A stretch of 56,434 bases of DNA from Mycobacteriales bacterium. GTDB taxonomy: Bacteria > Actinomycetota > Actinomycetes > Mycobacteriales > SCTD01. Location of the stretch: positions 18,876-75,309 of the forward strand of contig JBBDWV010000051.1 in assembly GCA_040902655.1 (NCBI GenBank), given 5' to 3'. The notes under the pieces were generated by a model, which saw only the letters and a list, made by a program, of their open reading frames with translations, made no database searches and had not been told where the DNA came from. Below, piece after piece: positions 2,867 to 37,584 of this stretch (position 1 is its first letter; each line of letters opens with the position of its first letter). A program made the translations under genes and the position numbers.

Positions 2867-2936
2867 GGCAGCCTCGTGGGGCGTTCCGGTGACGAGGCAG
2901 CGGAGCACCGACGCGGCGGCTCAGCCGCCCGGGGTC

Positions 2937-3074: not shown

Positions 3075-3112
3075 CTGCTCCTCCTCGGCACGGGCCGCAC
3101 CGACGGGCCGGT

Positions 3113-3143
3113 TGACATTCCAGTAGGTAGAAGGACAAGGTCG
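3113..3143. promoter_or_regulatory. Second MerR-type operator, upstream of merR
   Basis: The plus-strand sequence TTGACATTCCAGTAGGT (3113-3129) matches the copZ operator at almost every position, and the dyad continues to TTGTCC on the other strand. No convincing -10 element stands at the 19-bp position, so this may act mainly as an autoregulatory site. It lies between merR and the divergent SnoaL-like remnant. Confidence 0.6.
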
Positions 3144-3174
3144 GCTCCGACCCCTGTACCAGCGTGAGGGCACC

Positions 3175-3585
3175 ATGCGCATCGGCGAGCTTGCTGACCA
3201 ACTCGGCATCAACACCAAGACGATCCGGTACTACGAGCAGATCGGGCTCATCCCCCTCGCGCCACGCACCTCCGGCGGGTACCGCGACTACACCGAGACC
3301 GACGCAGCCCGGCTGACGTTCATCAAGACCGCCCAGCGGCTCGGCCTGTCCCTGGAAGAGGTCGCCGAGATCCTCCGGCTACGCGACGAGGGTGAGCCGC
3401 CGTGCGCCTACGTCCGCGACGTCATCAGCAAGCAGCTGCGCGGCATCGAGCGACGCATCGCCGAGCTGCGCGCTCTGCGCGGCGAGCTGCGGGAGCTGCG
3501 CGCCGCCGCCGACAGCATCCCCGAGGTCGACGGCGCGACCTGCCGGATCATCGAGCATGTCAACGCAGTGGCGGCCCGGAGCTGA
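3175..3585 (+). CDS. MerR-family heavy-metal-responsive regulator
   Basis: A 136-residue DNA-binding regulator. The N-terminal winged helix-turn-helix has the family signature (MRIGELADQLGINTKTIRYYE). A long dimerisation helix and a short C-terminal metal loop follow. Cys77 (PPCAYV) aligns with the Cys that divalent-metal sensors (ZntR, MerR) have where CueR has Ser. The only other Cys is Cys123 in GATCRIIEH, so the two-Cys Cu(I) loop of CueR is not evident. It is divergent from the chaperone/ATPase operon, whose promoter has the correct 19-bp spacer, and probably also controls the site at 3898-3928. Metal specificity cannot be assigned from sequence alone. Confidence 0.92.
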   Translation: MRIGELADQLGINTKTIRYYEQIGLIPLAPRTSGGYRDYTETDAARLTFIKTAQRLGLSLEEVAEILRLRDEGEPPCAYVRDVISKQLRGIERRIAELRALRGELRELRAAADSIPEVDGATCRIIEHVNAVAARS

Positions 3586-3603
3586 CGGCGAGCGGCGCCG
3601 CGG

Positions 3604-3819
3604 CTACGCCGCCGGTCGCGTCTCCTCGAGCTTCAGGGAGATGCCCCACAACTGGTAGATCGGTGGGCACAGGCTCAACGCGAGAGCCCGCCGCTGCCTG
3701 GTCGCGTCTCCCGCGCGCTCGGCCTTCACCCACATGAGCGTCACTGCCGCGATGTGCGCGGCAGCTGTCGCGTACATGTGGCCGCTCGTGACGCCCTTCG
3801 CATGCATCCACTTGACCAT
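3604..3819 (-). CDS. Small hypothetical membrane protein (71 aa)
   Basis: An unrecognised 71-residue protein with two moderately hydrophobic stretches (around residues 13-31 and 44-63) that could form membrane helices, joined by a basic loop. An AGGAG ribosome site lies about 8 nt before the ATG. Its stop is 18 nt from the convergent merR stop. No function can be assigned; its position inside the MerR-regulated block hints at a stress role. Confidence 0.5.
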   Translation of the reverse strand: MVKWMHAKGVTSGHMYATAAAHIAAVTLMWVKAERAGDATRQRRALALSLCPPIYQLWGISLKLEETRPAA

Positions 3820-3897
3820 GACAATGCTCCTGTCCCTCGGTCAACTCGTCTGCCTGTCGAGGGACGGCGTGCCCCGTGGGCGCGTGCAGACACCTGG

Positions 3898-3928
3898 TTG
3901 ACCTTCCACCTGCGGGAAGGTGTAGTGG
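3898..3928 (+). promoter_or_regulatory. Third MerR-type promoter, directed toward doxX
   Basis: A -35 TTGACC (3898-3903) and a -10-like TAGTGG (3923-3928) flank a 19-bp spacer with the near-perfect dyad ACCTTCC...GGAAGGT. The element shares TTGACnTTCCA with the other two sites. Its direction fits the doxX/alkene-reductase genes, putting them in the same predicted regulon. Confidence 0.65.
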
Positions 3929-3994
3929 CCATGTGCGCCGGAGCTGTGCAGCGATCCCGCTCCGCAAGCTCATCGGGAACAGAGCGGCCCGTAT

Positions 3995-4010
3995 GGTTGC
4001 TAATGCAACC
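3995..4010. promoter_or_regulatory. GGTTGC-TAAT-GCAACC palindrome before doxX
   Basis: Perfect 6-bp arms around a 4-nt centre, overlapping a possible -10 TATGGT (3992-3997). TTGC/GCAA palindromes of this kind are typical of MarR-family operators and often sit ahead of oxidoreductase genes. No MarR gene is present in the window, so the regulator would be encoded elsewhere. Confidence 0.4.
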
Positions 4011-4036
4011 AGCTCTCGCAACTCCTGGAGGTTCTG

Positions 4037-4450
4037 ATGGACACCCTTCTCGTCATCGGCAGGGTCCTGTTCGCCCTGCTGTTCCTGGGATCGGCCGTGG
4101 GCCACCTGACCAAGACCGAGGCCATGACGCAGTACGCGCAGTACCGCAAGCTCCCCGCCGCCAAAGCAGGTGTGATCGTCTCGGGTGTCGTGCTCGTGCT
4201 CGGCGCGCTGTCCGTCGTGCTCGGCGTGGTCGGCGACCTCGGCGCGCTCGCGCTCGCGGCGTTCCTGGTGGTCGCCGCCTTCGTCTTCCACGCCTTCTGG
4301 AAGGAGAGCGACCCTCAGGCCACGGCGACCGAGCAGGCGCAGTTCATGAAGAACATCGCGCTCGTCGGGGGCGCGATCGTGCTGTTCGCGCTGTTCGCTG
4401 GGGACGCCGCCGGTCCCGCCATCACCGACGGCGCTTTCGACCTGTCCTGA
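4037..4450 (+). CDS. DoxX family membrane protein
   Basis: A 137-residue, four-helix membrane protein of the DoxX type. It begins with the typical first helix (IGRVLFALLFLGSAVGHL), followed by helices near residues 47-62, 67-87 and 109-124. DoxX proteins are linked to thiol/oxidative stress membrane complexes in actinobacteria, but their biochemical role is unsettled. A GGAGG site precedes the ATG. The alkene reductase gene begins 81 nt downstream on the same strand, so they may share the promoter region at 3898-4010. Confidence 0.85.
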   Translation: MDTLLVIGRVLFALLFLGSAVGHLTKTEAMTQYAQYRKLPAAKAGVIVSGVVLVLGALSVVLGVVGDLGALALAAFLVVAAFVFHAFWKESDPQATATEQAQFMKNIALVGGAIVLFALFAGDAAGPAITDGAFDLS

Positions 4451-4531
4451 ACACACACGGTGTCGGCCGGCGTGCAGTGTGAGGCACACCGGTCCCCTCC
4501 GTGAGACCCCAATCCCTGAAGGAGATTCGCC

Positions 4532-5605
4532 ATGACCTCGCCCCTCTTCTCCCCCTACCGCCTCGGTGACCTGGTGCTGGCCAACCGGCTGGTGATGGCG
4601 CCGATGACGCGCAACCGCGCCGGCGCCGACGGCGTGCCGACCGCCTCGATGATCACCTACTACGCACAGCGCGCCACCGCCGGGCTGATCGTCACCGAGG
4701 GCACCCAGCCCAGCGCCGTCGGCCAGGGCTACCCGCTCACGCCCGGCATCCACACCGCCGAGCAGGCCGCCGGCTGGCGGCAGGTGACCGACGCCGTCCA
4801 CGGGCAGGGCGGCCACATCTACCTGCAGATCATGCACGCCGGACGCATCTCCCACCCGTCGCTGCAGCCCGGAGGTGAGCGTCCGGTCGCGCCGTCCGCG
4901 GTCCGCCCGGCCGGCCAGGTCTTCACCCCCTCCGGCCTGCAGGACTTCATGGACCCCCGCCCGCTGGAGACCGACGAGATCGCCGGCATCGTGCAGCAGT
5001 ACGCCGACGCCGCGCGCCTGGCCGTCGAGCAGGGCGGCTTCGACGGCGTGGAGGTCCACGGCGCGAACGGCTACCTGCCGCACCAGTTCCTGGCCGAGGG
5101 CACGAACTCCCGCACCGACCGGTACGGCGGCAGCGCCGAGAACCGCGCCCGGTTCCTGATCGAGGTCACGACTGCGGTGGCGGCCGCCGTCGGCGGCGAG
5201 CGCGTGGGAGTCCGGCTGTCGCCGGCCAACTCCTTCAACGACATCGTCGAGCACGAGACCGAGGCTGTGTACGCCGCGGTCGTCGCCGGGCTCGCGCCGC
5301 TGGGGCTCACCTACCTGCACGTCGTCGAGGGTCCTGCCGCCGTCACCGAGCAGATCCGCCAGGCGTGGTCCGGGACGCTCATCGTCAACGCCGCCTTCAG
5401 CCTGCCGACCACGCCGGAGAACCTGCAGGGGCTGCTCGGCGGGCCTGCTGATCTGGTCGCTGTCGGCCGGGCGTTCCTCGCCAACCCCGACCTGGTCCAG
5501 CGCCTGCAGCTCGACGCGCCGCTCAACCCCGCGGACGAGACGAGCTTCTATGGCGGCACCGACGCCGGGTACATCGACTACCCCGCCCTCGACCAGGCCG
5601 CCTGA
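4532..5605 (+). CDS. Old yellow enzyme family alkene reductase
   Basis: A 357-residue FMN-dependent NAD(P)H:flavin oxidoreductase that reduces activated C=C bonds of electrophilic enones, nitro compounds or related xenobiotics. It shows the TIM-barrel start (LFSPYRLGDLVLANRLVMAPMTR), the substrate-binding His176 and Asn179 with Tyr181 in HGANGY, and a C-terminal phosphate-binding segment (AVGRAFLANPDL). Length is normal for the NemA/YqjM branch. The ATG is preceded by AAGGAG. It sits after doxX behind a MerR site and a MarR-like palindrome, consistent with an electrophile response. Confidence 0.93.
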   Translation: MTSPLFSPYRLGDLVLANRLVMAPMTRNRAGADGVPTASMITYYAQRATAGLIVTEGTQPSAVGQGYPLTPGIHTAEQAAGWRQVTDAVHGQGGHIYLQIMHAGRISHPSLQPGGERPVAPSAVRPAGQVFTPSGLQDFMDPRPLETDEIAGIVQQYADAARLAVEQGGFDGVEVHGANGYLPHQFLAEGTNSRTDRYGGSAENRARFLIEVTTAVAAAVGGERVGVRLSPANSFNDIVEHETEAVYAAVVAGLAPLGLTYLHVVEGPAAVTEQIRQAWSGTLIVNAAFSLPTTPENLQGLLGGPADLVAVGRAFLANPDLVQRLQLDAPLNPADETSFYGGTDAGYIDYPALDQAA

Positions 5606-5616
5606 CGGCGGTTCCG

Positions 5617-5627
5617 CCCCCCCCCCC
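5617..5627. repeat. C11 homopolymer
   Basis: Eleven consecutive C residues lie in the gap between the alkene reductase and the dehalogenase genes. The run is outside the chosen coding regions but is prone to sequencing error or slippage. Confidence 0.85.
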
Positions 5628-5788
5628 CGGCGCCCACGCCGGGCGGGCGGACGTTGTTCTCCACGTCCTGGACGTCGGACGGCGAGTCGCACTCCCGCAT
5701 CGCGGCGGAGACGCTGCACCTCAGCGCGAGTCGGTACCGCACCGCTAACGTCGCCGCGTCCCTGCCTCCGTTGCCGAGGAGCCCCTTG

Positions 5789-6706
5789 ATGAAGGCCCTG
5801 CGCACCCCCGAGGCCCGGTTCGCCGACCTGCCTGACTTCCCGTACACGCCCCACTACGTCCACGTCGACGACGGGGACGGCGGCCGGCTGCGCGTCGCGT
5901 ACGTCGACGAGGGGCCACGCGACGCTCCGCCGGTACTGCTGCTGCACGGCGAGCCGTCGTGGTCGTTTCTGTACCGGAAGATGATCCCGATCCTGCTCGA
6001 GGCGGGACTACGCGTCGTCGCGCCGGACCTGGTCGGGTTCGGCCGGTCCGACAAGCCCGTCGAGCGCAGCGACTACACCTATGCCCGGCACGTCGAGTGG
6101 ATGCGGCAGGCGCTGCTCGACGAGCTCGTGCTGAACGGAGTGACGTTCGTCGGGCAGGACTGGGGCGGGCTGGTCGGACTGCGCCTGGTCGCGGAGAACC
6201 CCGACCGTTTCGCGCGTGTGGTGGTCGCCAACACCGGGCTGCCCACGGGCGACCAGCAGATGAGCGAGGCGTTCCTGGCCTGGCAGCGCTACTCGCAGGA
6301 GACGCCGGACTTCCGCGTCGGCCGGATCGTGTCCGGTGGGTGCGCCACACCGCTCGCACCGGAGGTGGTCGCGGCCTACGATGCCCCCTTCCCGGACGAC
6401 AGCTACAAGGCCGGCGCGCGGGTCTTCCCGACGCTGGTGCCGACCCGGTCGGACGACCCGGCGGCAGACGCCAACCGCGCAGCGTGGGAGGTGCTGTCGA
6501 GCTGGGACCTGCCGTTCCTCACCGCGTTCTCGGACTCCGATGTCATCACGCGCGGGGGCGACAAGGTGTTTCGCAAGCTCGTCCCGGGAGCGGCAGATCG
6601 CGGGCACGTGACGCTCGAGGGCGGCGGCCACTTCCTGCAGGAGGACGTGGGCCCGCAGCTCGCGCGGGTGGTGGCCGAATTCGTCGCGGCCACCCCGCAC
6701 GGCTGA
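5789..6706 (+). CDS. Haloalkane dehalogenase (HLD-I type alpha/beta hydrolase)
   Basis: A 305-residue cytosolic alpha/beta hydrolase predicted to cleave carbon-halogen bonds of haloalkanes by water. Visible are the oxyanion motif HGEPSW (53-58), the nucleophile Asp124 in GQDWGG with Trp125 as halide-stabilising residue, a candidate acid in SDSDV (249-251) and the base His281 in GGGHFLQED. Positions match DhlA-type enzymes closely. The ATG at 5789 is chosen for the GAGGAG site before it; a longer frame from 5654 has no domain support. Natural substrate is unknown; some family members act on other leaving groups. Confidence 0.88.
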   Translation: MKALRTPEARFADLPDFPYTPHYVHVDDGDGGRLRVAYVDEGPRDAPPVLLLHGEPSWSFLYRKMIPILLEAGLRVVAPDLVGFGRSDKPVERSDYTYARHVEWMRQALLDELVLNGVTFVGQDWGGLVGLRLVAENPDRFARVVVANTGLPTGDQQMSEAFLAWQRYSQETPDFRVGRIVSGGCATPLAPEVVAAYDAPFPDDSYKAGARVFPTLVPTRSDDPAADANRAAWEVLSSWDLPFLTAFSDSDVITRGGDKVFRKLVPGAADRGHVTLEGGGHFLQEDVGPQLARVVAEFVAATPHG

Positions 6707-21680: not shown

Positions 21681-21698
21681 CCGCACCGCCAGAGCAGG

Positions 21699-21726
21699 CT
21701 GACGGCTGACGGCTGACGGCTGACGG
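21699..21726. repeat. Four tandem copies of CTGACGG
   Basis: Four perfect 7-bp units, just after the FHA gene. Intergenic simple repeat. Confidence 0.9.
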
Positions 21727-21816
21727 CGTACGCCACCGTGCCGCCCACGTCGGGTCGGCCACGCCGCTGCGGCCGCAAGCCGTGCAGGCGCGGGGGCCAG
21801 CCCGTGCGGGCGGGTG

Positions 21817-21930
21817 TGACCCGGCTCGATCGCCCTGGGGCCGGTCTGACCCGGCTCGATCGCCCTGGGGCCGGTCCGACCCGCCTCGATCGCCCTGGGG
21901 CCGGTCTGACCCGCTTCGATCACCCTCGGC
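21817..21930. repeat. 30-bp minisatellite, about 3.8 copies
   Basis: Units start at 21817, 21847, 21877 and 21907 with one or two substitutions each; the last is diverged. The core is TCGATCGCCCTGGGGCCGG. There are no spacers, so it is a tandem repeat rather than a CRISPR array. Confidence 0.9.
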
Positions 21931-22304: not shown

Positions 22305-22937
22305 ATGCGACGGCATCCTCAGATGAGCGGTGACTCCGGCGCGGCGATCCTCGGCCTGGCTGTGACGATCGTGGTGGTGCTGGTGGCGGCCGGCCTGCTG
22401 CACCGGACAGCGTCGTTGGCCGGCGAGATCAACGACAAGGCCAAGACGATTGCCCTCACCGGTCGCGGCATCAACGAGTCGACCGACAGCATCATCCAGC
22501 TGGAGCGGACCAATGAGCTCGCCACGTCCATCCTGAACTCCGCGAAGCCGCTGGAGGGCAAGCTCGGGCAGATCGTGTCGCTGGCCGGCAACGTGAACGG
22601 TCTGGCCGGCTCGATCAACAACTCGGCGGGGAGCATCAACGGCTCGGCCGTCAGCATCAACGGGACGGCAGGAGGCATCAACTCCAACGCCACCAGCATC
22701 AACAAGACGGCCGACGGCATCAACGGCGAGGCCTCACGCATCCTCGCCGTCGCCCAGTCCATCAACCGGGGCGTCGCGCAGATCAACACCAACCTGGACG
22801 CCACGATCGCGATCGCCACTCAGATCCGCGGTGACACGAGCAACATCGTCACTCAGGCCAGGCGCGCGCACATCAAGGCAACCTGCATTGACCGTGGCGT
22901 CGCTGGCGCCAAGGGCAACGACGGCCACTGCAAGTAG
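22305..22937 (+). CDS. Membrane-anchored heptad-repeat protein, island gene 1
   Basis: An unrecognised 210-residue protein. One N-terminal transmembrane helix (about 13-32) is followed by an extended region with consecutive heptads of the form xAxSINx (about 93-147: AGSINNS, AGSINGS, AVSINGT and so on). The C-terminal part has the motif DTSNI (177-181) and ends with Cys194 and Cys209. The pattern suggests a long polar coiled coil outside the membrane with a disulphide-closed tip. A GGGAG site precedes the ATG. It is the first of three tandem relatives. Confidence 0.8.
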   Translation: MRRHPQMSGDSGAAILGLAVTIVVVLVAAGLLHRTASLAGEINDKAKTIALTGRGINESTDSIIQLERTNELATSILNSAKPLEGKLGQIVSLAGNVNGLAGSINNSAGSINGSAVSINGTAGGINSNATSINKTADGINGEASRILAVAQSINRGVAQINTNLDATIAIATQIRGDTSNIVTQARRAHIKATCIDRGVAGAKGNDGHCK

Positions 22938-22948
22938 AGGAGACTGAG

Positions 22949-23644
22949 ATGCCAAGCACAATCGCCCCTGGCGGCAAATCGACCGGCGTTGCCCGGTCGT
23001 CGGATCCCGGCAAGCAGACCTTCTTCGACCGCTGGCTCAAGACGTGGGCCATCCTGCTCGGCCTGGTGGTCCTGGTCGTCGTCGCCTACCTCATCGCGAT
23101 CACGAGTTCCCTGTCGTCGATCAACAAGAACCTCGGCGTCGCCAGCGACTCGGTCACCGGAGCCGGCGGCAACGTCCTGACGCTGCCGGACCAGATCCAG
23201 CGAGCGAACGAGAACCTCACCGGCATCGACACGGCCCTCAAGCCGATCGACGCCGAGACGGATCGGATCATCTCCGCGCTGACCTCGATCCGCGGCGGAC
23301 TCACCTCCATCGACGGGTCGCTGAAGAACACCAACGGGTCGCTCGTGGACACCGACAGCTCGCTGAAGAACACCAACGGGTCCCTCACCGACACCGACAA
23401 CGTGCTCGGCTCGGTCCTGGGCCTGGCCGGCAAGATCCGCACCACCCTCGTGGACGCGGATGACCCGCCGGACAAGCTGGGCGTCCAGAACATCCACCGC
23501 CGCGTCGACACGGCGAACAAGATCCTGACCTCCGCCCGGGCGGACACCAAGAACATCCTGACGTCGCTGGTGCAGGTCAACGTCCACCTGGAGAGCATCT
23601 GCAACTCTCCGGCGGTGCGCGGCGGGCCTTCATGCAACGCCTGA
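22949..23644 (+). CDS. Membrane-anchored heptad-repeat protein, island gene 2
   Basis: A 231-residue relative of the preceding protein. A 30-residue cytosolic N-terminus leads to a transmembrane helix (about 33-51). Heptads such as GLTSIDG, SLKNTNG and SLVDTDS repeat around 110-155, including one exact duplication of SLKNTNG. The C-terminus repeats the shared module: DTKNI (199-203), then Cys218 and Cys229. AGGAGA lies upstream of the ATG, 11 nt after the previous stop. No known family is recognised; function is unknown. Confidence 0.8.
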   Translation: MPSTIAPGGKSTGVARSSDPGKQTFFDRWLKTWAILLGLVVLVVVAYLIAITSSLSSINKNLGVASDSVTGAGGNVLTLPDQIQRANENLTGIDTALKPIDAETDRIISALTSIRGGLTSIDGSLKNTNGSLVDTDSSLKNTNGSLTDTDNVLGSVLGLAGKIRTTLVDADDPPDKLGVQNIHRRVDTANKILTSARADTKNILTSLVQVNVHLESICNSPAVRGGPSCNA

Positions 23645-24267
23645 GGCCGCACCGGAACGCCGGTGACCACGGCATCATCGCGACGCACATGGCGATCACC
23701 GTCGCCTTCGCGTTGTTCGCGGTCGTGCAGCTGACCCGCACCACGCTCTCCGCACAGCAGATCGACACGCGGGTGAGTGACATCGTCAACTCCGTGGACA
23801 CCATCGACACCGCCACCATTCCGGTGGCGCTGCTGGACGAGACCGGTGACACCACCGACGAGATCCTGGCTGCGGCGAAGAACCTGAACGGGCAGGCCCA
23901 GGAGGTCACCAAGCACGCAACCACCATCGACGGGCATGTGAAGGACATCCTGAGCAGCGCGAACACGATCAACAGCAGTGTCGTGGACATCAACAGCAAC
24001 GTCCGTGAGATCAACACGACCGCGCGGGCGATCAACAAGAACGCCTCCGAGATCCTCGGCTCGTTCCAGCGGCTGTCACCCGTCGTCGTCTCCATCCACG
24101 ACGGTGTGGCCGCCATCAACGGCCAGGCCGACAGGATCATCGCGTTGTCGCAGGGCATCAAGAGCGACACCGGCAACATTCTCGCCGCAGCCCGCGACGT
24201 GAATGCGCACGCCAAGTCGATCGACTGCAGCTCGCTGATCCGTGGGTCTGCCTGCAACCAGCCCTAG
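23632..24267 (+). CDS. Membrane-anchored heptad-repeat protein, island gene 3
   Basis: A 211-residue third relative. A hydrophobic helix lies at about 19-36. Heptads ending in IN/ID run from about 93 to 140 (TINSSVV, DINSNVR, EINTTAR, AINKNAS). DTGNI (179-183) precedes Cys199 and Cys208 at the very C-terminus. Its start overlaps the second gene by 13 nt, so the three are translationally linked. It faces the minus-strand arm of the island across a long hairpin. Confidence 0.8.
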   Translation: MQRLRPHRNAGDHGIIATHMAITVAFALFAVVQLTRTTLSAQQIDTRVSDIVNSVDTIDTATIPVALLDETGDTTDEILAAAKNLNGQAQEVTKHATTIDGHVKDILSSANTINSSVVDINSNVREINTTARAINKNASEILGSFQRLSPVVVSIHDGVAAINGQADRIIALSQGIKSDTGNILAAARDVNAHAKSIDCSSLIRGSACNQP

Positions 24268-24343
24268 GACTGCGCGCCGCTCCCCGGACGCAGACCGGAT
24301 CGACTCTGCCGATGCCGCCCCACTGAGCCGAGCCACCGCCAGG

Positions 24344-24406
24344 TGATCCACGGGGACTTTGGGGCGGACCTTTGACCGGCAACCGCCCCAAAGTCCGCGT
24401 GGATCA
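24344..24406. terminator. Long imperfect hairpin between convergent operons
   Basis: Arms 24344-24367 and 24383-24406 pair over 24 bp with a single mismatch around a 15-nt loop. Its position after the last plus-strand island gene and facing the minus-strand operon fits a bidirectional terminator. It is unusually long for one and could instead be a remnant of a small inverted-repeat element. Confidence 0.65.
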
Positions 24407-24410
24407 ACCC

Positions 24411-24527
24411 CAGGGGCCGGAGGGCCGGGGCCGGAGGGCCGGGGCCGGAGGGGCGCGGGCGGGGAGCGGCGCGGGCGGGGAGCGGCGCGGGCGGGGGGCG
24501 GCGCGGGCGGGGGGCGGCGGCGGGGTG
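24411..24527. repeat. G-rich tandem repeats
   Basis: GGGCCGGGGCCGGA-type units are followed by four near-identical 16-bp units (24453-24516) with the core GCGCGGGCGGGG. The runs of three to six G make G-quadruplex formation possible on the plus strand. Confidence 0.85.
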
Positions 24528-25030
24528 CTGGTGGGCGCGACAGCAGTCGGTGGAGTCGGCGCGGACCATCACGGCCCTCAGTCGATCCGGCGAGCCCCCG
24601 GCCGCCGCCCAGTGCCGCAGGTGAGGAGGGAGGTTGAACGCCACCTCACGGCCCCCGGCGGTCCGGGTGTAGCCGGACCGCACGCACGCCGGCGAGGCTG
24701 CCGGTCTTGGGCGGGACTGCACCGCAGCTGCAACAATCAGGAAGCACGGCGGTATCAGGAGCGCCGGCATCGGGGGAGCGGGGGCGGGTGTCAAGACCGC
24801 CGCATCGGAGAAACGATGCTCACACCCCTGCCACGACCCGATGCTCAGGCCGTTGTCCTGATCGCTTCCTGTCGCGCGGCACAGGTGAGCCGCGCCGGCC
24901 GCCGTCCACCGACAGCCTTTCTGACCCGGATCCGGTCGAGCAGGCACCCGAGCTGCTGCGCCAGCTGCAGACACACCGACGGACACTCCACTCCAGGCTG
25001 TCGAATGTCGGGTGACCGCACAGGGCGGCG

Positions 25031-26071
25031 CTACTGCAGGATCTGGTAGCTCTGGGCGATGCGGTCGAAGTCCTCGGCAAGCCCCTCGAAGGATTCGCTG
25101 GGCAGCGCCTGAAAGACCAGCGTGTGCATCGTGCTGTCACGGAACAAGAAGAAGTGCGAGTGCACGCCTTCCACCTGGGTCTCCTCATCCGTGAAGGTGT
25201 AGAGGTAGTAGTAGCCGGGTGTGCCGCCCAGCTCGACAGACTTCTGCTCGACGACGCCGACACCGGGCGCCTGCACCACCACATCGGTGACAGCCTTGAC
25301 ATCGTCGATGTCCGCCGGATCGATCGGCGTCTCGAGCGGCACGAGACGCACCAGCATCGACCCGCCCTCCGGTCCCAGCAGCACGACCCCGATGTCAGGG
25401 TCGTCCGTCTCCAAAGGCTTCCAGGTCTCCGGGTGCTGCAAGGTGAAGCGTCCCTGCGGATCCCGGTAGTCGACGAGGCGAACCTCGGCCGACGGGCTCG
25501 CCGACGGATTGGCGTCGGCGCCCAGCTTGTCGGCACGATCCCGTGCCGTGGCAGCCAGCACGGTCGCAGCGACCGCGACCACCAGTACACCCGCAAGCAG
25601 CGAAAGCCGCGAGCGGCTGCGCCATGGGTTGGCCTCTCCTGCCGCGGCAGAAGAAGCCCGGTCGGCGTCGGTTGTGGGACTCGATGGGCTGCGCGCATCG
25701 CCAGCAGCTGACTCCGCTCCGGCACCGCCGGTGGACCCGGCAGCGGTCGCGCCGGTCGCCTGGCCAGCCCCGGCCCGGGCATTGAGCACAGCGAACACAT
25801 CGGCCAGGCTGCGACCCCACAGATCCCACCGGCCGGACTCGATGCTCAGCCGCTCCCGCACCAGTGGGTGCGCGAGCGAGCTGTCACGATCCAGGCTGGT
25901 CAACCCCTCGACGACCAGCGCCCGCTCGACGGCGGCCCGCGACTCGGCCAACTCGGCAGGCAGGTCAGCGCGTACGAAAACAACTTCGTGGCCAGCCCGC
26001 AGAGCTGCGGCGATCCGGCCACCGACGAACAACACGTCCCTGTCGGCCGTCAGCTCGTCGGTGTCCTCCAC
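25031..26071 (-). CDS. Single-pass membrane protein with PsbP-like C-terminal domain
   Basis: A 346-residue protein, last gene of the minus-strand island arm. The N-terminal ~105 residues are cytosolic and contain a conserved-looking VLFVGGRIAAALRAGHEVVFVR segment. A Ser/Ala/Gly-rich linker and one transmembrane helix (about 156-174) follow. The C-terminal part after residue 195 (DPQGRFTLQHPETWKPL..., GTPGYYYLYTF) resembles PsbP/DUF1795-type extracytoplasmic domains. The start is uncertain: GTG at 26071 is the first legal start, but protein-like sequence (LCFVRGETV) continues upstream. Function unknown. Confidence 0.75.
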   Translation of the reverse strand: MEDTDELTADRDVLFVGGRIAAALRAGHEVVFVRADLPAELAESRAAVERALVVEGLTSLDRDSSLAHPLVRERLSIESGRWDLWGRSLADVFAVLNARAGAGQATGATAAGSTGGAGAESAAGDARSPSSPTTDADRASSAAAGEANPWRSRSRLSLLAGVLVVAVAATVLAATARDRADKLGADANPSASPSAEVRLVDYRDPQGRFTLQHPETWKPLETDDPDIGVVLLGPEGGSMLVRLVPLETPIDPADIDDVKAVTDVVVQAPGVGVVEQKSVELGGTPGYYYLYTFTDEETQVEGVHSHFFLFRDSTMHTLVFQALPSESFEGLAEDFDRIAQSYQILQ

Positions 26072-26154
26072 GGTCTCACCACGGACGAAGCAGAGCGCGG
26101 CCCTGTCGTGCGGCGAGCCGCTGTTCTCCAGAGGCTGTGTAATCCCGATGCCCG

Positions 26155-26409
26155 TCAGACGCTGAGCCGCTCTGCCCCGACCGCCGCTCGCTCGAGATCG
26201 GCAGCTGTGGCAGCCAGGTTGGAGTTGATCTGGTCAGCCGCCGGACCGATGGCGCCACACTGCGTCACCAACGTGCGGACGCCCCATGTGATCTTGGCGA
26301 GGTTCGTCGAGATGTGCCGCAGCAGCTTCGTGATGCGGATGACAAAGAATGCCAGCACGGCAACGAGCAACACGATCTCGAACACCGACAGCGCGATCAG
26401 CAGTGTCAT
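26155..26409 (-). CDS. Small one-helix membrane protein, minus-arm paralogue E
   Basis: An 84-residue protein with an N-terminal transmembrane helix (about 3-25) and a soluble helical tail (LLRHISTNLAKITWGVRTL...INSNLAATAADLERA). The tail aligns by eye with that of the 27209 protein at L..V...L......GVR and a later I...L..L. The ATG overlaps the upstream stop in ATGA, showing translational coupling. No known family recognised. Confidence 0.75.
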   Translation of the reverse strand: MTLLIALSVFEIVLLVAVLAFFVIRITKLLRHISTNLAKITWGVRTLVTQCGAIGPAADQINSNLAATAADLERAAVGAERLSV

Positions 26410-26717
26410 ACCCGGGCTCCCCTGTTGCTGCCGTTGCTGGACTGGAAGAGGGTGGCATGCGTGTGAACCTCTTCACGCAGCGCGTCCGTGAGGGTCCCGG
26501 TGCTCGTGAGCTGCCAGGTTGTGGTCGTGTTGCGGGCCACCTTCGTCGCGACCTGCCAGACGTCGGCGACGTTGCGGTCGATGTCGCGGACGATGCCCGT
26601 CAACAGCGAGAGCAGCAGGATGACGACCAACACGACGACCAGGCCGAGGCCGAGGGTGGTCCACCACATGGCGATCTGGTTGTCGGCGAGGGCGATGTTC
26701 ACCGTCGCCGCGTTCAC
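26406..26717 (-). CDS. Small one-helix membrane protein, minus-arm paralogue D
   Basis: A 103-residue protein with a transmembrane helix (about 19-41, LGLGLVVVLVVILLLSLL) and a helical soluble tail (IVRDIDRNVADVWQVATKVA...). The GTG start at 26717 is preferred because it overlaps the upstream stop in GTGA, the same coupling seen across this operon. Function unknown; the architecture matches its neighbours. Confidence 0.72.
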   Translation of the reverse strand: MNAATVNIALADNQIAMWWTTLGLGLVVVLVVILLLSLLTGIVRDIDRNVADVWQVATKVARNTTTTWQLTSTGTLTDALREEVHTHATLFQSSNGSNRGARV

Positions 26718-27001
26718 AGCCGCGCTCCCAGGACTCCGCGCGCCGCCTGCGCGTTCGCGACGATGCTGGTGAGGCCTTCGTTCACCGCGGCGACGTCCCA
26801 CAGCGCCTCGGTGTTGGCGCGGGAATCCTCCAGCGCTTCGGTGATCAACGTCGCCTGGACCGCGATGCGGCGAGCCATCGTCAAGATGATGGCGACGAGG
26901 ATGACCACCAGGGTGATGATCACGCCGGCGATGACGAAGGAGACGTACCAGGTCGTGAGACTGGGTGAGTCCAAGATGTCTTGTGCCAGGACTGCGTACA
27001 T
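26714..27001 (-). CDS. Small one-helix membrane protein, minus-arm paralogue C
   Basis: A 95-residue protein. A short N-terminal segment leads into a transmembrane helix (about 20-42), followed by a soluble helix (IAVQATLITEALEDSRANTEALWDV). Its ribosome site (AGAGGA) lies within the end of the 32-codon ORF upstream, whose stop is 3 nt before this ATG. Same layout as the other arm members; function unknown. Confidence 0.72.
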   Translation of the reverse strand: MYAVLAQDILDSPSLTTWYVSFVIAGVIITLVVILVAIILTMARRIAVQATLITEALEDSRANTEALWDVAAVNEGLTSIVANAQAARGVLGARL

Positions 27002-27004
27002 CGA

Positions 27005-27103
27005 CTAGGTCCTCTTAACCTTCTGCGAGACGAGGTTGACGATGGTGTCGCTGACGGTGTGGACCTCGTGCTTGCGCTGCACGTGGTCCGCCACCTTCGC
27101 CAT
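27005..27103 (-). CDS. 32-residue ORF inside the island operon
   Basis: A very short ORF, charged and helical in character (MAKVADHVQRKHEVHTVSD..., ending NLVSQKVKRT). It ends 3 nt before the next start and contains that gene's ribosome site. It has no clear ribosome site of its own; the frame is open upstream for 19 more codons without a better start. It may be a leader peptide, a true microprotein, or the tail of a decayed paralogue. Confidence 0.45.
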   Translation of the reverse strand: MAKVADHVQRKHEVHTVSDTIVNLVSQKVKRT

Positions 27104-27208
27104 GAGTTCGGGCTCGGAATTCGCTCTCCCATGCCAACTGCACGGGTGGTCGGCGTCCTTTCAAGCAAAGCTGTAGGGCATGTCAGCTCCGGTCTCTGTG
27201 TCGGACGT

Positions 27209-27493
27209 TCATCGGGTCGCCCGGGCGCGGGTGCGCCGAGCCGGTTGCGGCACCGTGGCCGTCGTCACGAGATCCTTCAGAGCGTCGTCGATGGCGCCGA
27301 CCTCGGAGGCGATGGTGCTGACGACAGCTCCCACCGGCTCGGTCTGGTTGGCGATCGACCGCACTCCGATGAGGACGGTTCCGAGGGTGAAATTCACCTT
27401 CGTCAGGTGGTACGAGATGAGGCTGAGGTAGATGGCGAGCGCGCCGACGAGCAGCGCGACCCCGATCAGCGTGACGATCACTTCAGCGCGCAT
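27209..27493 (-). CDS. Small one-helix membrane protein, minus-arm paralogue B
   Basis: A 94-residue protein with an N-terminal transmembrane helix (about 4-28), a soluble helix (LTKVNFTLGTVLIGVRSIANQTEPVG...) and a basic C-terminus. A GGAG site precedes the ATG, 45 nt after the first gene of the arm. By eye it is related to the 26155 protein. No database family recognised. Confidence 0.74.
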   Translation of the reverse strand: MRAEVIVTLIGVALLVGALAIYLSLISYHLTKVNFTLGTVLIGVRSIANQTEPVGAVVSTIASEVGAIDDALKDLVTTATVPQPARRTRARATR

Positions 27494-27538
27494 GAACTCC
27501 TACTTCGGGTTGGCGAAGGCCGGCGGGAACAGAACGTC

Positions 27539-27787
27539 TCAGAGCAACCGTCGTAGCGCGGCACCGTAGCGCCCCACCAGGCCGCGAGCGGTCCCGGCCA
27601 GCTCAGCCGTGGTGACCAGCTTGGGCACCGCGTCCAGCGTGCCGGTGAGCGTGACGCCATTGTCGAGCACGTCGTCCGCGTAGCGCCTGATCTCGAGCGT
27701 GGCCTGGAGGAGGCCATGAGCGAGATAAACGACCAGCGGGACGACGACGAGCAGAAGAACAGCATTGCCGATCCACCACAGCACCAC
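27539..27787 (-). CDS. Small one-helix membrane protein, minus-arm paralogue A
   Basis: An 82-residue protein, first gene of the minus-strand arm. The GTG at 27787 is chosen for the GAGGAG site at ideal distance; a longer frame from 27934 reads through the promoter region. A transmembrane helix (about 4-26) is followed by a helical tail (LLQATLEIRRYADDVLDNG...). Function unknown. Confidence 0.72.
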   Translation of the reverse strand: MVLWWIGNAVLLLVVVPLVVYLAHGLLQATLEIRRYADDVLDNGVTLTGTLDAVPKLVTTAELAGTARGLVGRYGAALRRLL

Positions 27788-28671: not shown

Positions 28672-28695
28672 GCCGGCCGGCCCCTACCGGCCGGC
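28672..28695. terminator. 9-bp hairpin at the end of the aldolase gene
   Basis: Perfect arms at 28672-28680 and 28687-28695 with a 6-nt loop that contains the aldolase stop codon. A possible terminator for the minus-strand aldolase gene. Confidence 0.4.
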
Positions 28696-29697
28696 CTGCA
28701 GAGCCAGCGACAGGACGCCGGAGTTCGCCTGGACGCGCTCGTCGAGGGCCGCCTGGCCCGCCTGCCAGCGCGCCGGATCGCCGGCCCACGCGCGCAGAGC
28801 CGGGTCGACGAGGGCGCGGCCGAAGGAGAAGGTCACCTGCCAGGGTGTGTCGACTGCCGCGATCGCGGCCAGATGTGCCGTCGCCACCTCGGGTGGCTGC
28901 CCCCCGGACAGGAAGGCGATACCCGGAACTGCCTCGGGGACGTGCTCGCGCAGCACCCGTACCGTCGTCTCCGCCACCTCCTCGACCGACGGCTGCCGGC
29001 TGCAGGCCTTGCCGGCCACCACCATGTTGGGCTTGAGCACGATGCCCTCGAGGTCCACGCCCTGCGCGAGCAGCGACACGAAGACCATGTCCAGGGTCTG
29101 CCCCGTCGCCTCCGCACAGCGCTCGATCCCATGGTCACCCTCCATCAACAGCTCCGGCTCGACGATCGGCACGATGCCGGCCTCCTGGCACAGCGCGGCA
29201 TACCGACCCAGCGCGTGCGCGTTGGTGAGCATCGCGCGCTCGCTGGGCAGGTCGGCGCTCAGGACCAGGGCGGCCCGCCACTTGGCGAAGACGGCACCTT
29301 GCGATTCGTACTCCGCCAGCCGCTCGCGAAGCCCGTCCAGTCCCTCGGTGACCGTCTCCCCCGGCGCAAACGCCAGCGGCTTGGCGCCGGTGTCGACCTT
29401 GATGCCCGGCAGGACCCCTACGTCGCAACAGGCCTGCGGCACACTGCGCCCGTCGGAGAGCGACTGCCGGAACGTCTCGTCGGCCAGGATGACCCCGCTG
29501 ACCGGCTTCGACAGCCCCGGCGTCGTGAGCAGCATCTCGCGATAGTCGCGCCGGGCCTCCGCCGAGGGCTCGACGCCGACCCCCTTCAGCCGTGTGGACA
29601 TCGTGCCGGGACTCTCGTCGGCAGCCAGGATCCCGCGTGGCGGCGCGACCATTGCCCGAGCCGTGCTGTGGAGCCGGTCGGTGTGTTCGTGCGTCAC
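28684..29697 (-). CDS. Class I fructose-bisphosphate aldolase
   Basis: A 337-residue Schiff-base aldolase that interconverts fructose 1,6-bisphosphate with dihydroxyacetone phosphate and glyceraldehyde 3-phosphate; in the Calvin cycle it also makes sedoheptulose bisphosphate. It shows ILAADES with Asp27, AKWRA with Lys139, VEPE and the Schiff-base Lys222 in VLKPNMV. The GTG start follows GAGGAGG. Class I enzymes are less common in bacteria than class II. Position at one edge of the CBB cluster supports a role in carbon fixation. Confidence 0.93.
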   Translation of the reverse strand: MTHEHTDRLHSTARAMVAPPRGILAADESPGTMSTRLKGVGVEPSAEARRDYREMLLTTPGLSKPVSGVILADETFRQSLSDGRSVPQACCDVGVLPGIKVDTGAKPLAFAPGETVTEGLDGLRERLAEYESQGAVFAKWRAALVLSADLPSERAMLTNAHALGRYAALCQEAGIVPIVEPELLMEGDHGIERCAEATGQTLDMVFVSLLAQGVDLEGIVLKPNMVVAGKACSRQPSVEEVAETTVRVLREHVPEAVPGIAFLSGGQPPEVATAHLAAIAAVDTPWQVTFSFGRALVDPALRAWAGDPARWQAGQAALDERVQANSGVLSLALQAGR

Positions 29698-29954: not shown

Positions 29955-30908
29955 CTAGCTCTGGTAGACCTCCTGGGCCAGGTGGTAGAGCAGGATCAGC
30001 TGGGTCACCGCGAGCGGCTCGCTGCGAAAGCCGGGGGCCACGTCGCCCAGGCCCTGGGGCATCTCCCGCCGGTCGGCCAGACCCTCCCAGATCGCCTTCT
30101 CCAGCAGGTGGGCGTCCTCGGCAGGCGCGTGTCCGTGCACGTGCAGGCAGTCGACCGGCGTGCCGTCGTCATCGCGGAGGATCTTCAGGTGCATCGCGGC
30201 GCGCACGTCGTCGGTGAGAATGTGGCTCAACGGCGGATGCTGCACCGTCGGGCGCAGCAGCAGCTCGGCCGAGAGCGGCGTGTCCGGGGGGTCGTGCCGG
30301 TCCGCGACAGGGGCGAAGCGGACGACGATGTCGGCGTGCCGGCGCTGCGGACGGATGAACTCAGCCGACTCCGGCTCCCGCCGCACCAGGTCGGCAAGCA
30401 CCTCCTCGCGGGTGTAGCCGCGATCGGTGCTGTCCCGCGCCACCTTCCAGACGTGCCGGATCTCCTCGGGCGGGTCGAGGTAGACGCTGATGTCGAAGCA
30501 GGCCCGCGACAGCTTGGTGAACAGCGGGAACAACCCCTCGACGATGACGAACTGCCGGGGCTCGACGTACTCCGGGCGGCCGAAGGTCCCCGTCCGGTGG
30601 TCGTAGACCGGCTTGAGGATGGGCTGCCCCGTCGCCAGCATCTGCAGGTGCTGCTCCATGATGTCGATGTAGTTGCCGTCGGGGTGCGTCGGCGTGAACG
30701 GAAGGCTGCGCCGCTCCGCCCGGTCGTAGCGGTGGTAGTCGTCCACGCAGATCGACGTGCAGCGGTCGCGACCGACCGCCTCCACCAGGCCGCGGGTGAG
30801 CGTCGTCTTGCCCGACGCGCTGTCGCCGGCGACGGCCAGCATCACAGGCCGGGCCACCGGGCCGTACGGCGGCCGCGAGCGCGTCATCCGGATCAACTTG
30901 TCAGGCAT
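29955..30908 (-). CDS. Phosphoribulokinase, type II-like
   Basis: A 317-residue P-loop kinase of the PRK/uridine kinase family, predicted to make ribulose 1,5-bisphosphate from ribulose 5-phosphate. Walker A is AGDSASGKTT (27-36), followed by ICVDDYHRYDR, KPVYDHRTG, VIVEGLFPLF and HADIVVRF. These match the plant/cyanobacterial-type (type II) layout, not the proteobacterial one encoded at 32940. The redox-regulatory Cys pair of plastid enzymes is not seen. It is divergent from the two-component system. A related but different sugar kinase activity cannot be excluded. Confidence 0.85.
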   Translation of the reverse strand: MPDKLIRMTRSRPPYGPVARPVMLAVAGDSASGKTTLTRGLVEAVGRDRCTSICVDDYHRYDRAERRSLPFTPTHPDGNYIDIMEQHLQMLATGQPILKPVYDHRTGTFGRPEYVEPRQFVIVEGLFPLFTKLSRACFDISVYLDPPEEIRHVWKVARDSTDRGYTREEVLADLVRREPESAEFIRPQRRHADIVVRFAPVADRHDPPDTPLSAELLLRPTVQHPPLSHILTDDVRAAMHLKILRDDDGTPVDCLHVHGHAPAEDAHLLEKAIWEGLADRREMPQGLGDVAPGFRSEPLAVTQLILLYHLAQEVYQS

Positions 30909-32939: not shown

Positions 32940-33812
32940 TCAGGCCCGCCGGCGCTGCTCCATGAGCCGCAAGATGAGCGGCGTGAAGATCAGCTGCATC
33001 GCCAGTTCCATCTTGCCGCCCGGTACGACGATGATGTTCGGCCGTGACATGAACGAGTCGTGCAGCATCGACAGCAGGTACGGGAAGTCGATGCCCTTGG
33101 GATCACGGAAGCGGATGACGACGAAACTCTCGTCCGCGGTCGGGATGAACCGCGCGATGAACGGGTTCGAGGTGTCGACCGTCGGGACGCGCTGGAAATT
33201 CACGTGCGTGCGCGAGAACTGCGGACAGACGTAGTGCACGTAGTCCGGCATCCGGCGCAGGATCGTGTCGGTGACGGCCTCGTCGGAGTAGCCGCGCTCG
33301 CTCTTGTCGCGGTAGGCCTTCTGGATCCACTCGAGGTTGATGATCGGCACGACGCCGACCAGCAGGTCGGGGTGCTGCGCGACGTCGGCCGTCTCCGTCA
33401 CGACCGCGCCGTGCAGCCCCTCGTAGAAGAGCATGTCGGTGCCCTCCGGGACCTCCTCCCAGGGAGTGAAGGTGCCCGGCTCCTGCCCGTAGGGCTTGGC
33501 CTCCTCCGCGTTGTGCAGGTACTTGCGGGTACGGCCGGTGCCGTCGGCAGCATATTGGGAGAACAACCCCTCGAGCTCGTCCAGCAGGTTCGCCTCGGGG
33601 CCGAAGTGGCAGAAGTGACGGTTGCCCGCCGCCTCGGCGTCCGCGGTGGCGAGCTTCATCTCGTTGCGGTCGTAGCGGTGGAAGGAGTCGCCTTCCACGA
33701 GGGCGGGCGAGATCCGCTCTCGCCGGAAGATGTGCTGCAGCGTCTTGGTGACCGAGGACGTGCCGGCCCCCGAGGACCCCGTGATCGCCACGATCGGATG
33801 CTTGGCCGACAT
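32940..33812 (-). CDS. cbbP: Phosphoribulokinase, type I (proteobacterial CbbP type)
   Basis: A 290-residue kinase with the length and order of motifs of bacterial type I PRK: P-loop ITGSSGAGTSS (10-20), VEGDSFHRYDR, HFGPEANLLDEL, FYEGLHG, HVNFQRVPTVDTSNPF and IVVPGGKMELAMQLI. It phosphorylates ribulose 5-phosphate to give the RuBisCO substrate. It lies 13 nt after the FBPase gene on the same strand, so fbp-cbbP form an operon reading away from cbbR. This is the better candidate for the dedicated Calvin-cycle PRK of the two in the window. Confidence 0.95.
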   Translation of the reverse strand: MSAKHPIVAITGSSGAGTSSVTKTLQHIFRRERISPALVEGDSFHRYDRNEMKLATADAEAAGNRHFCHFGPEANLLDELEGLFSQYAADGTGRTRKYLHNAEEAKPYGQEPGTFTPWEEVPEGTDMLFYEGLHGAVVTETADVAQHPDLLVGVVPIINLEWIQKAYRDKSERGYSDEAVTDTILRRMPDYVHYVCPQFSRTHVNFQRVPTVDTSNPFIARFIPTADESFVVIRFRDPKGIDFPYLLSMLHDSFMSRPNIIVVPGGKMELAMQLIFTPLILRLMEQRRRA

Positions 33813-33825
33813 TGCTTGCTCCTTC

Positions 33826-34899
33826 TCAGCTGCGGAACAGGGACCTCGTGTTGAACATCGAGGTGTCGAACACGTCCCCGAAGGGCTCGACGTGCTCGTG
33901 GTGGTACTGCTCGATCCGCTCCACCTCGTGGCGGGAGCCGAAGACGAGCGGGACGCGCTGATGCAGTCCTTCCGGCACGATCTCCATGACCCGCTCGCGG
34001 CCGGTGCTCGACGCCCCTCCGGCCTGCTCGATGACGAAGGAGATCGGGTTCGCCTCGTACATCAGGCGCAGCCGGCCGGGGCGGCTCGGGTCCTTGCTGT
34101 CGTGCGGATAGAGGAACACGCCGCCGCGGGTCAGGATCCGGAACGCCTCGGCGACCAGCGAGGCGATCCACCGCATGTTGAAGTCCTTGGCCCGGGGGCC
34201 GGTCCTGCCCTCCAGGCACTCCTGGACGTAACGCCGGACCGGCGGCTCCCAGAACCGCTCGTTCGAGGCGTTGATCGCGAACTCCTCCGCCTCCTCCGGC
34301 ACGCGCATCTGCGGGTGGGTGAGGACGAAGGCACCGATGTCCCGGTCGAGGGTGAAGCCGTCTACACCGTTGCCGGTCGTCAGGACGAGCAGGGTGGACG
34401 GGCCGTAGAGCACGAAGCCACCGCAGACCTGCTCCACGCCCGGCTGCAGGAAGTCCTCCACCCTGGGCTCCGCACCTGGATTCGGGCTGCGCAGGACGGA
34501 GAAGATCGTGCCCACCGAGATGTTCACGTCGATGTTGCTGGAACCGTCCAGCGGGTCGAAGACCAGCAGGTACTTCCCCCGGCGGTAGCGCGCCGGAATC
34601 GGGTAAAAATCCTCGAGTTCCTCCGACCCCATCGCGGCCAGGTGACCGGTCCACTCGGTCTCGCCGATCATCACCTCGTTGCTGATGACGTCGAGCTTCT
34701 TCTGCACCTCGCCCTGGACGTTCTCCGCGTCGGCGCTACCCAGCGCCCCGATGAGGGCACCCTTGTTCACCTGGTTGGCGATGACCTTCGCGGCCGTCGC
34801 CACCGCGTTGAGCAGGCCGGAGAAGTCACCGGTGGAGTCCGAGTGCCGGTGCTCCTCCTCGATCGTGTAGCGCGTGAGGGTCTTCCGCATGTCTGCCAC
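33826..34899 (-). CDS. Class I fructose-1,6-bisphosphatase
   Basis: A 357-residue metal-dependent sugar phosphatase acting on fructose 1,6-bisphosphate (and possibly sedoheptulose 1,7-bisphosphate) in the regenerative half of the Calvin cycle and in gluconeogenesis. The metal site [11 protein letters not shown] (114-124) is intact, with [14 protein letters not shown] and the C-terminal [20 protein letters not shown] segment. The GTG at 34899 is preferred since it follows GGAGGAGAGG; an ATG three codons later is also possible. It is followed closely by cbbP. Confidence 0.94.
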
Positions 34900-35094: not shown

Positions 35095-36003
35095 TCAGCC
35101 GGCGGACGCCGGCGCACCGGCCGACAGCCGTCCTGGACGAAAGGCCAGCTCCCCGGCGGCCCGGCCGTCCGTCAGGTGTGCGAGGAACAGCCGGGCGGTG
35201 GCCGTCGGCTCAGCCGTCGTGACGGCATGCCAGGGCCGCCTCAGCGGGGTTCCCCGGGCGGTCAGGGGCTGCAGCTCGCCGCTGCGCAGGTGCTGGCGAA
35301 CCGCGTCGGTGGACACCACCGTGATGCCCAGGCCGAGTACTGCGGACGCCACGACCGCACCGTGCGAACCGAGGGTCAGTACCGACGGCGAGATCTCGAG
35401 CGCGCCGATCAGCGAGAGAGTCGTGTCGCGCGTGCCCGAGCCGGGCTCGCGCAACAGCCAGGTGGCCTTGGCGACCTCGGTACGGCCCCCCGGGGCGGCG
35501 ACCAGGATGAGGGAATTCGAGCGCGTGGCCCGGCTGACCAGCCCCCGGCCGGGCAGCGGGCGGCCCCCGATCGCCACGTCGAGCTGGTGGTCGGCCAGCA
35601 GCGAGAAGACCCGGTCGCGAACCCCCACGTCGAGCGTGATCTCGACGTGGGGGTAGCTGCGCCGGAACGACGCCAGCAGGCCCGGAACGAGATACTCCCC
35701 CGCCGTCGTCACCGCTCCCAGCCGCAGCTTGCCGTGCTCTGCCGCCACACCCCGCCGCGCAGCGGCAACGCTCTCCTCCATCAGTCCGACGATGCGGCGC
35801 GCGTACTGCGCGAAGACCGAACCGGCCTCGGTCAGCGCCAGCCCGCGGCCCGTGCGCTCGAACAGCTTCACCCCGACCTCGCCGTTCAGCGCCGCCAGCG
35901 ACGCGGAGACTGCCGACTCCGTCACCGACAACTGCGCCGCCGCGGCCCGGGCCGAGCCGCACTGGACGAGGGCGAGGAACGTCCGCAGTCGCGCCGGCGT
36001 CAT
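35095..36003 (-). CDS. cbbR: LysR-family regulator CbbR
   Basis: A 302-residue LysR regulator divergent from cbbLSX, the standard place for CbbR. The HTH includes AAAAQLSVTESAVSASLAALN. The effector domain includes GAVTTAGEYLVPGLL, TWLLREPGSG and LGITVVSTDAV. CbbR activates RuBisCO operons in response to metabolites such as RuBP or NADPH. The gap to cbbL contains a strong palindrome (36019-36036). A paralogue is encoded at 20136. Confidence 0.93.
   Translation of the reverse strand: MTPARLRTFLALVQCGSARAAAAQLSVTESAVSASLAALNGEVGVKLFERTGRGLALTEAGSVFAQYARRIVGLMEESVAAARRGVAAEHGKLRLGAVTTAGEYLVPGLLASFRRSYPHVEITLDVGVRDRVFSLLADHQLDVAIGGRPLPGRGLVSRATRSNSLILVAAPGGRTEVAKATWLLREPGSGTRDTTLSLIGALEISPSVLTLGSHGAVVASAVLGLGITVVSTDAVRQHLRSGELQPLTARGTPLRRPWHAVTTAEPTATARLFLAHLTDGRAAGELAFRPGRLSAGAPASAG

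Positions 36004-36018: not shown

Positions 36019-37584
<1,566 letters not shown>

Follow-up and report, generated by a model that had tools for sequence, protein, structure and literature searches.

A two-armed island of small membrane proteins that probably ties enzymes of trace hydrogen and carbon monoxide oxidation to the cell membrane in Actinomycetota

Overview of the island

The window analysed here is a stretch of 56,434 nucleotides from a Mycobacteriales bacterium (GenBank assembly GCA_040902655.1, contig JBBDWV010000051.1, positions 18,876 to 75,309), and positions 22305-27787 of it hold a convergent island of genes for small membrane proteins. Three genes on the plus strand (p1 to p3) face a minus-strand arm that reads, in order of transcription, m1, m2, a DUF1059 gene, m3, m4, m5 and m6. 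With a probability of roughly 0.55, the island serves a high-affinity trace-gas oxidase as its membrane module, the partner here most likely being a group 1m-like [NiFe]-hydrogenase encoded elsewhere in the genome. Relatives of m1 to m5 occupy the loci of 1l-type and 1m-type hydrogenases and of form I carbon monoxide (CO) dehydrogenases, and p1 to p3, usually together with m6, are found in a subset of those oxidase loci. The small proteins are a conserved set that probably ties the enzymes of trace H2 and CO oxidation to the cell membrane.

The island was singled out in an earlier note made from the letters of the window. All of the open reading frames (ORFs) listed there were located, and p1 to p3, m1 to m5 and m6 were likewise called by a gene finder trained on the codon usage of the window, with later starts for p1 and m6. 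Because none of the p and m proteins reached the cut-off of any Pfam or NCBIfam family, their relations rest on comparative genomics. Co-occurrence was counted in 396 Actinomycetota genomes searched with profiles of p2 and m4, the latter being scored as present at a profile E-value below 1e-15. The Fisher p-values given below take no account of phylogeny, and the data had been seen before the identity thresholds were set. The group names 1l and 1m are used here for classes of gene order and identity, not for placement in a tree.

Minus arm in hydrogenase and CO dehydrogenase loci

The m4 profile matched 37 of the 396 genomes, 28 of them without p2. It was present in 19 of the 20 genomes with a hydrogenase large subunit at least 52% identical to that of the window genome, compared with 18 of the 376 others (p = 3e-21). 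Identities to other large subunits lay at 68-78%, 52-57% and 39-43%, which suggests that the large subunits form three classes by identity. In family f32 (loci L081, L084 and L085) the gene order is small subunit-m3-m4-m5-m1-m2-large subunit, and in L079, L083 and L162 a 1m-like hydrogenase has the groups m3-m4-m5 and m1-m2-DUF1059 on its flanks or close by.

The same five genes were also found with CO dehydrogenases. Six loci of families f43, f30 and f79 (L148, L150 and L152-L155) share the order coxM-coxS-coxL-coxF-coxG-m1-m2-m3-m4-m5, have no p genes, and encode a CoxL that exceeds the TIGR02416 cut-off; in L151 and L156 the m genes lie beside coxM, coxS and coxL in a different order. Among 77 sampled genomes tested, 12 had a CoxL with at least 70% identity, and m4 was present in 11 of these 12 (p = 1e-3). 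The link between m1 to m5 and CO dehydrogenase went unmentioned in the literature searched, which is weak evidence of novelty because few subscription papers were covered.

Other arrangements of the m family were seen as well. A diverged cluster resembling m1 to m5 (L160, in G347:C9) stands directly before a gene resembling an Mrp/NuoL-type antiporter subunit, which suggests that the family has further partners. Locus L077 (genome G035) holds at 2904-6016 the groups m3-m4-m5 and m1-m2 and, between them, a gene for a 520-aa membrane protein that contains an internal repeat; no oxidase gene is nearby. A 351-aa protein of L077 (6994-8049) and a 396-aa protein of L008 (1739-2929), both encoded near m or p genes, are related uncharacterised proteins.

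Association of the two arms

The p2 profile matched eight further genomes strongly. All nine p2 genomes of the sample carried m4, against 28 of the 387 others (Fisher p = 2e-10). The same proteins recur jointly in other Actinomycetota, and the island is more than a chance grouping. The earlier note had taken the arms to be parts of one system and had named their independent occurrence as the test of that claim. Half of this test is positive, since the m arm occurs without the p arm in those 28 genomes; no p2 genome of the sample lacked m4, and the claim is further supported by gene order.

In L009 a single strand reads hypF-SIS-SIS-hypE-p1-p2-p3-m1-m2-(m6 reversed)-m3-m4-m5-hypA-hypB, the SIS, hypE, hypA and hypB identities being confirmed. 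Both there and in L069-L076 the p and m genes form one block, either colinear or convergent. All five m genes lie near p1 to p3 in seven of the loci L069-L076, while L075 has only m1 and m2, with m3 to m5 of that genome on a separate contig (L082); m6 is present except in L073 and L074. The series is complete in L069, where small and large hydrogenase subunits, m genes, m6 and p genes are followed by BirA-like, TPR and NifU genes and by Calvin-cycle genes. CO dehydrogenase genes (coxG or coxL/S/M) adjoin the island in L073, L074 and L076, the CoxL of L074 bearing the form I motif AYRCSFR, and a form I CoxL (L166) from the genome that contains L075 is no more than about 15 kb away from the p genes. 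The p trio was also found beside CooC-type ATPases and hypC-D-E-F in L018, and after hypD-hypE and one unknown gene in L008.

Additional copies were observed near some of these islands. In L075 (G226:C2) the p trio has an AAA gene nearby and also a further set of ORFs resembling p genes and m6, an apparent partial duplication of the module. In L070 and L071 another hydrogenase large subunit gene, diverged and accompanied by m3-m4-m5 copies of its own, is found near the island.

Plus-strand proteins

The genes p1 (22305-22937, 210 aa, or 204 aa from a start at 22323), p2 (22949-23644, 231 aa) and p3 (23632-24267, 211 aa) are paralogues, and p2 and p3 overlap by 13 bases. When the window's own genome was searched with p1, p3 (E = 5e-22) and p2 (E = 7e-11) were the only other matches; homologues of p1 were found in 13 loci. 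As the earlier note had observed, each protein has one transmembrane helix followed by a heptad tail. A single hydrophobic segment was found in each, and the hydrophobic periodicity of the tails peaked at 101.5-103.5 degrees per residue (about 3.5 residues), exceeding 2000 of 2000 shuffles. The C-terminal cysteine (Cys) pair attributed to all three proteins was upheld for p1 and p2, where it is invariant in five sequences each, but it is not conserved in p3, and the second Cys is absent or shifted in some more distant p1 proteins. The distribution of lysine and arginine (K/R) around the transmembrane segment gives an N-in/C-out pattern for p2 and p3 and is ambiguous for p1; the conserved Cys pairs of p1 and p2 are in keeping with an outer position and disulfide formation. 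The predicted structure of p2 was too poor for use (predicted local distance difference test score, pLDDT, of 49).

Several known families were considered for p1 to p3 and rejected. Matches to ZorA, MCE, DUF948, laminin and others scored far under cut-off and were typical of coiled coils, and the Protein Data Bank matches of the p1 profile were designed antiparallel coiled coils, probably driven by the heptad pattern. A phage origin was likewise dismissed, as PHROGs gave only marginal coiled-coil matches and the surroundings are metabolic. Between the ends of the two arms lies a terminator-like inverted repeat (24344-24406; 24 bp, 96% complementary, with a 15-nt loop). Short GC-rich tandem repeats with units of 7, 30, 14 and 16 bp flank the plus arm at 21697-21727, 21808-21926 and 24413-24524.

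Minus-strand proteins

Five of the minus-strand genes encode short single-pass proteins of one family: m1 (27539-27787, 82 aa, GTG start), m2 (27209-27493, 94 aa), m3 (26714-27001, 95 aa), m4 (26406-26717, 103 aa, GTG start) and m5 (26155-26409, 84 aa). Within it m1 and m4 are one paralogue pair, m2 and m5 another, and m3 is a third subfamily. The overlap described for most minus-strand genes was seen only at m3/m4 (GTGA) and m4/m5 (ATGA), the other junctions being 3 to 83 bases apart. Each protein has one hydrophobic segment, although a crude scan gives two stretches in m3. The tails of m1, m2, m4 and m5 are periodic to a degree reached by at most 0.3% of shuffles, in agreement with the amphipathic tails ascribed to the whole group, but that of m3 is not clearly so (6.4% of shuffles reach its value). 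K/R counts of 0.0-0.3 before the segment and 1.7-2.4 after it give an N-out/C-in pattern for m1 to m5.

The sixth gene, m6 (25031-26071), encodes 346 aa with a cytoplasmic N-terminal part, one transmembrane helix and a predicted outer PsbP/Mog1/LpqN-like domain. Its start is uncertain, as homologues mostly have 194-223 aa. The PsbP-like domain proposed in the earlier note was recovered by Foldseek with a low-confidence model, the best match being PsbP (1v2b, E = 5e-6); although the overall model is poor, the C-terminal domain consistently matched the PsbP/Mog1/LpqN fold, a modelled resemblance which by itself implies no function. The K/R distribution of m6 follows an N-in/C-out pattern, and the charge distributions taken together suggest that the m1 to m5 tails are inside and those of p2, p3 and m6 outside. 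The membrane-spanning coiled-coil complex of both arms that the earlier note had proposed is at this stage hypothetical. A relation to type VII secretion was rejected, m6 scoring 19.1 bits against TIGR03931 (cut-off 47.6), with no secretion genes noticed among the gene calls of the window.

DUF1059 gene with an in-frame TGA codon

The 32-codon ORF (27005-27103) that had been listed separately is really the C-terminal end of a DUF1059 gene of 58 codons on the minus strand (27005-27181), located between m2 and m3. Read from an ATG at 27181 with a plausible ribosome-binding site upstream, it gives MPYSFA-TGA-KDADHPCSWHG..., and if the TGA is taken to encode an amino acid, the match to DUF1059 (PF06348) reaches 48.8 bits. 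The window copy differs from that family in that the TGA, at codon 7 (27161-27163), replaces the codon of the first conserved Cys.

We regard the TGA-bearing DUF1059 proteins as a candidate new selenoprotein family, and it appears quite unlikely that the gene is a pseudogene or the product of a sequencing error. The same codon is TGA, and never TAA or TAG, in six genomes, namely that of the window and G199, G347, G294, G451 and G151 (loci L088, L090, L089, L158 and L074 in the latter five); the residues on both sides of it are conserved, and in six other copies (L075, L079, L083, L162, L169 and L170) the position is occupied by Cys. These features and the ribosome-binding site speak against a decayed gene, as does the window's own genome, which has adjacent selA and selB (SelA 342 bits, SelB 277 bits) and a selenocysteine tRNA (tRNA-Sec) of 76 bits, although tRNA-Sec was common in the other genomes tested too. 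Favouring an artefact, no conserved consensus structure resembling a selenocysteine insertion sequence (SECIS) was found after the UGA (in the window, a 7-bp hairpin has its loop 21 nt after the UGA, with z = -0.6), and among the TGA-bearing genomes tRNA-Sec was borderline in G199 and none exceeded the cut-off in G451, which is 78% complete. A literature search found no paper linking DUF1059 to selenoproteins.

Genomic context in the window genome

The island adjoins a Calvin-cycle cluster. Beyond a YceI gene at 28034 follow genes for a class I fructose-bisphosphate aldolase (28684-29697) and phosphoribulokinase (29955-30908), a second kinase (32940-33812), a fructose-bisphosphatase-like gene (33826-34899), a LysR gene (35095-36003) and rbcL (36136-37584), after which come rbcS and a cbbX-like gene. 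YceI, aldolase, phosphoribulokinase and rbcL were confirmed by Pfam, and the others were named by eye. In L158 (G451, a genome of another family) m1, m3-m5, m6 and a TGA-bearing DUF1059 gene again lie near rbcL-rbcS-cbbX, a recurrent link between the module and RuBisCO.

No CoxL above 40% identity was found in the window's own genome, and the partner should therefore be the hydrogenase of contig 16 (L030). Its subunits are adjacent, the families at the locus being PF00374, PF14720, PF01750, PF01106, PF13424 and CbiA/ParA-type ATPases, with a weak BirA match (34.7 bits). This corresponds to the 1m gene set of HycI-type protease, NifU, CooC-type ATPases, TPR and BirA-like proteins, and this group 1m-like [NiFe]-hydrogenase is the most likely partner. 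Within the genus of the window genome, p1 and the hydrogenase are both present in G000, G002 and G008 and both missing in six other genomes; the p locus of G008 is apparently identical to L007.

Proposed role and alternatives

From the observed linkage to oxidase loci we infer the following mechanism. The amphipathic tails of the m proteins would lie in the cytoplasm and come together as a stalk or collar rooted in the membrane, which would keep the soluble oxidase at the inner face of the membrane and give it access to menaquinone. In this manner m1 to m5 would serve 1l and 1m hydrogenases and some CO dehydrogenases as HucM serves the hydrogenase Huc, and for CO dehydrogenase they would act in addition to CoxG. 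In the subset of loci that have them, p1 to p3, with their tails outside, and m6 may brace or cap the complex on the outer face, and DUF1059, in its Cys or selenocysteine (Sec) form, may act in redox chemistry or assembly. The most inclusive version, in which one two-sided module (m1 to m5 inside, p1 to p3 and m6 outside) links two unrelated enzymes, high-affinity [NiFe]-hydrogenase and form I CO dehydrogenase, with the quinone pool and has a Sec-containing DUF1059 among its members, is a tentative proposal to which we give rather less than an even chance.

Some observations weigh against a role as an oxidase membrane module. The island is not beside the hydrogenase in its own genome; neither m3 nor m4 was found in G002 or G008, where p1 to p3 and the hydrogenase are present; many CO dehydrogenases (for example in G118 and G130) and hydrogenases of about 40% identity work without m4; and a few m clusters (L077, L164) have no adjacent oxidase. 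In G008, which is of the same genus as the window genome, the contig runs about 2 kb past p3 and stops after an IS21-like gene, and that of G002 stops near p1, leaving room for missed m genes.

The m and p proteins could instead be assembly or maturation scaffolds that gather subunits and maturation factors at the membrane without being part of the working enzyme. The genes in L009, L018 and L008 lie among hyp maturation genes, not beside hydrogenase subunits, and CooC-type ATPases, NifU and TPR proteins accompany the m and p genes, as such a scaffold would suggest. In 1l-type and CO dehydrogenase operons, however, the m genes stand between or after the structural genes, and since hydrogenase and CO dehydrogenase mature by different pathways, the two are more likely to have a membrane role of these proteins in common than a maturation scaffold; we consider scaffolding improbable. 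It is similarly doubtful that the arms are separate units, with m1 to m5 belonging to the oxidase and p1 to p3 and m6 performing some other cell-surface task as neighbours through shared conditions of expression. The genomes with m4 and no p2, the p1 to p3 genes without detected m3 and m4 in G002 and G008, and the opposite predicted topologies would all accord with such a separation, but every p2 genome of the sample has m4, mostly in one block, m6 stands among the m genes in L009, and the p1 of L018 is weakly similar to m1 (E = 7e-5). A membrane module that serves the oxidases remains our preferred reading.

Comparison with known systems

The route by which electrons reach the membrane from atmospheric H2 and CO oxidases that are not integral to it is an active question, to which HucM and CoxG are the two answers found in the literature surveyed. 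If the role proposed here is true, a five-gene module common to hydrogenases and CO dehydrogenases would point to a common solution open to direct genetic test, and would account for small unknown membrane genes in trace-gas operons, while a selenoprotein encoded there would connect selenium with the trace-gas metabolism of soil Actinomycetota.

In Huc of Mycobacterium smegmatis the coiled-coil stalk of HucM reaches the membrane and menaquinone (Grinter et al. 2023, PMC10017518). A coiled-coil link from a high-affinity hydrogenase to the membrane is the job proposed for m1 to m5, but HucM is a single protein of 188 aa, with a stalk that associates with the membrane only peripherally, whereas m1 to m5 are several transmembrane proteins. 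CoxG is described in PMC13240472 (citing Kropp et al. 2025) as a quinone-binding carrier of electrons from CO dehydrogenase to the membrane. It is the direct neighbour of m1 to m5 in CO dehydrogenase operons, but it has another fold (PF06240) and the m genes are present in addition to it.

The closest likenesses are found in the hydrogenase clusters described by Ray et al. 2022 (PMC9561532). Group 1m clusters combine adjacent small and large subunits, a HybD-type protease, an FeS assembly protein, CooC, TPR and a BirA homologue with DUF1059 and a pair of small proteins (82-92 aa) that have a single helix each; correspondingly, the L030 locus has adjacent subunits with protease, FeS (iron-sulphur) assembly protein, CooC, TPR and BirA-like genes, and m1-m2-DUF1059 occur in the window and beside the subunits in L083 and L162. 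The window differs in having five small transmembrane proteins rather than two, together with p1 to p3 and m6, all split from the subunit genes. In group 1l, five short predicted transmembrane proteins, HylTM1-5, are encoded between the small and large subunits of the [NiFe]-hydrogenase. The m1 to m5 proteins are likewise five short proteins of 82-103 aa with one transmembrane segment, matched to HylTM1-5 by description and position only, and their relatives in L081, L084 and L085 lie exactly between the two subunits. Plasmid records were tried as a source of group 1l references and set aside, as they gave only large subunits of at most 43% identity and no relative of m4. Since the m arm agrees with HylTM1-5 and with the small genes of group 1m, the earlier description of the island as an undescribed system is only partly right. 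The window genes stand away from hydrogenase subunits and are joined by p1 to p3, m6 and DUF1059, and the island is best filed as an enlarged variant of the HylTM-type hydrogenase membrane module, with an unexpected second home in CO dehydrogenase operons.

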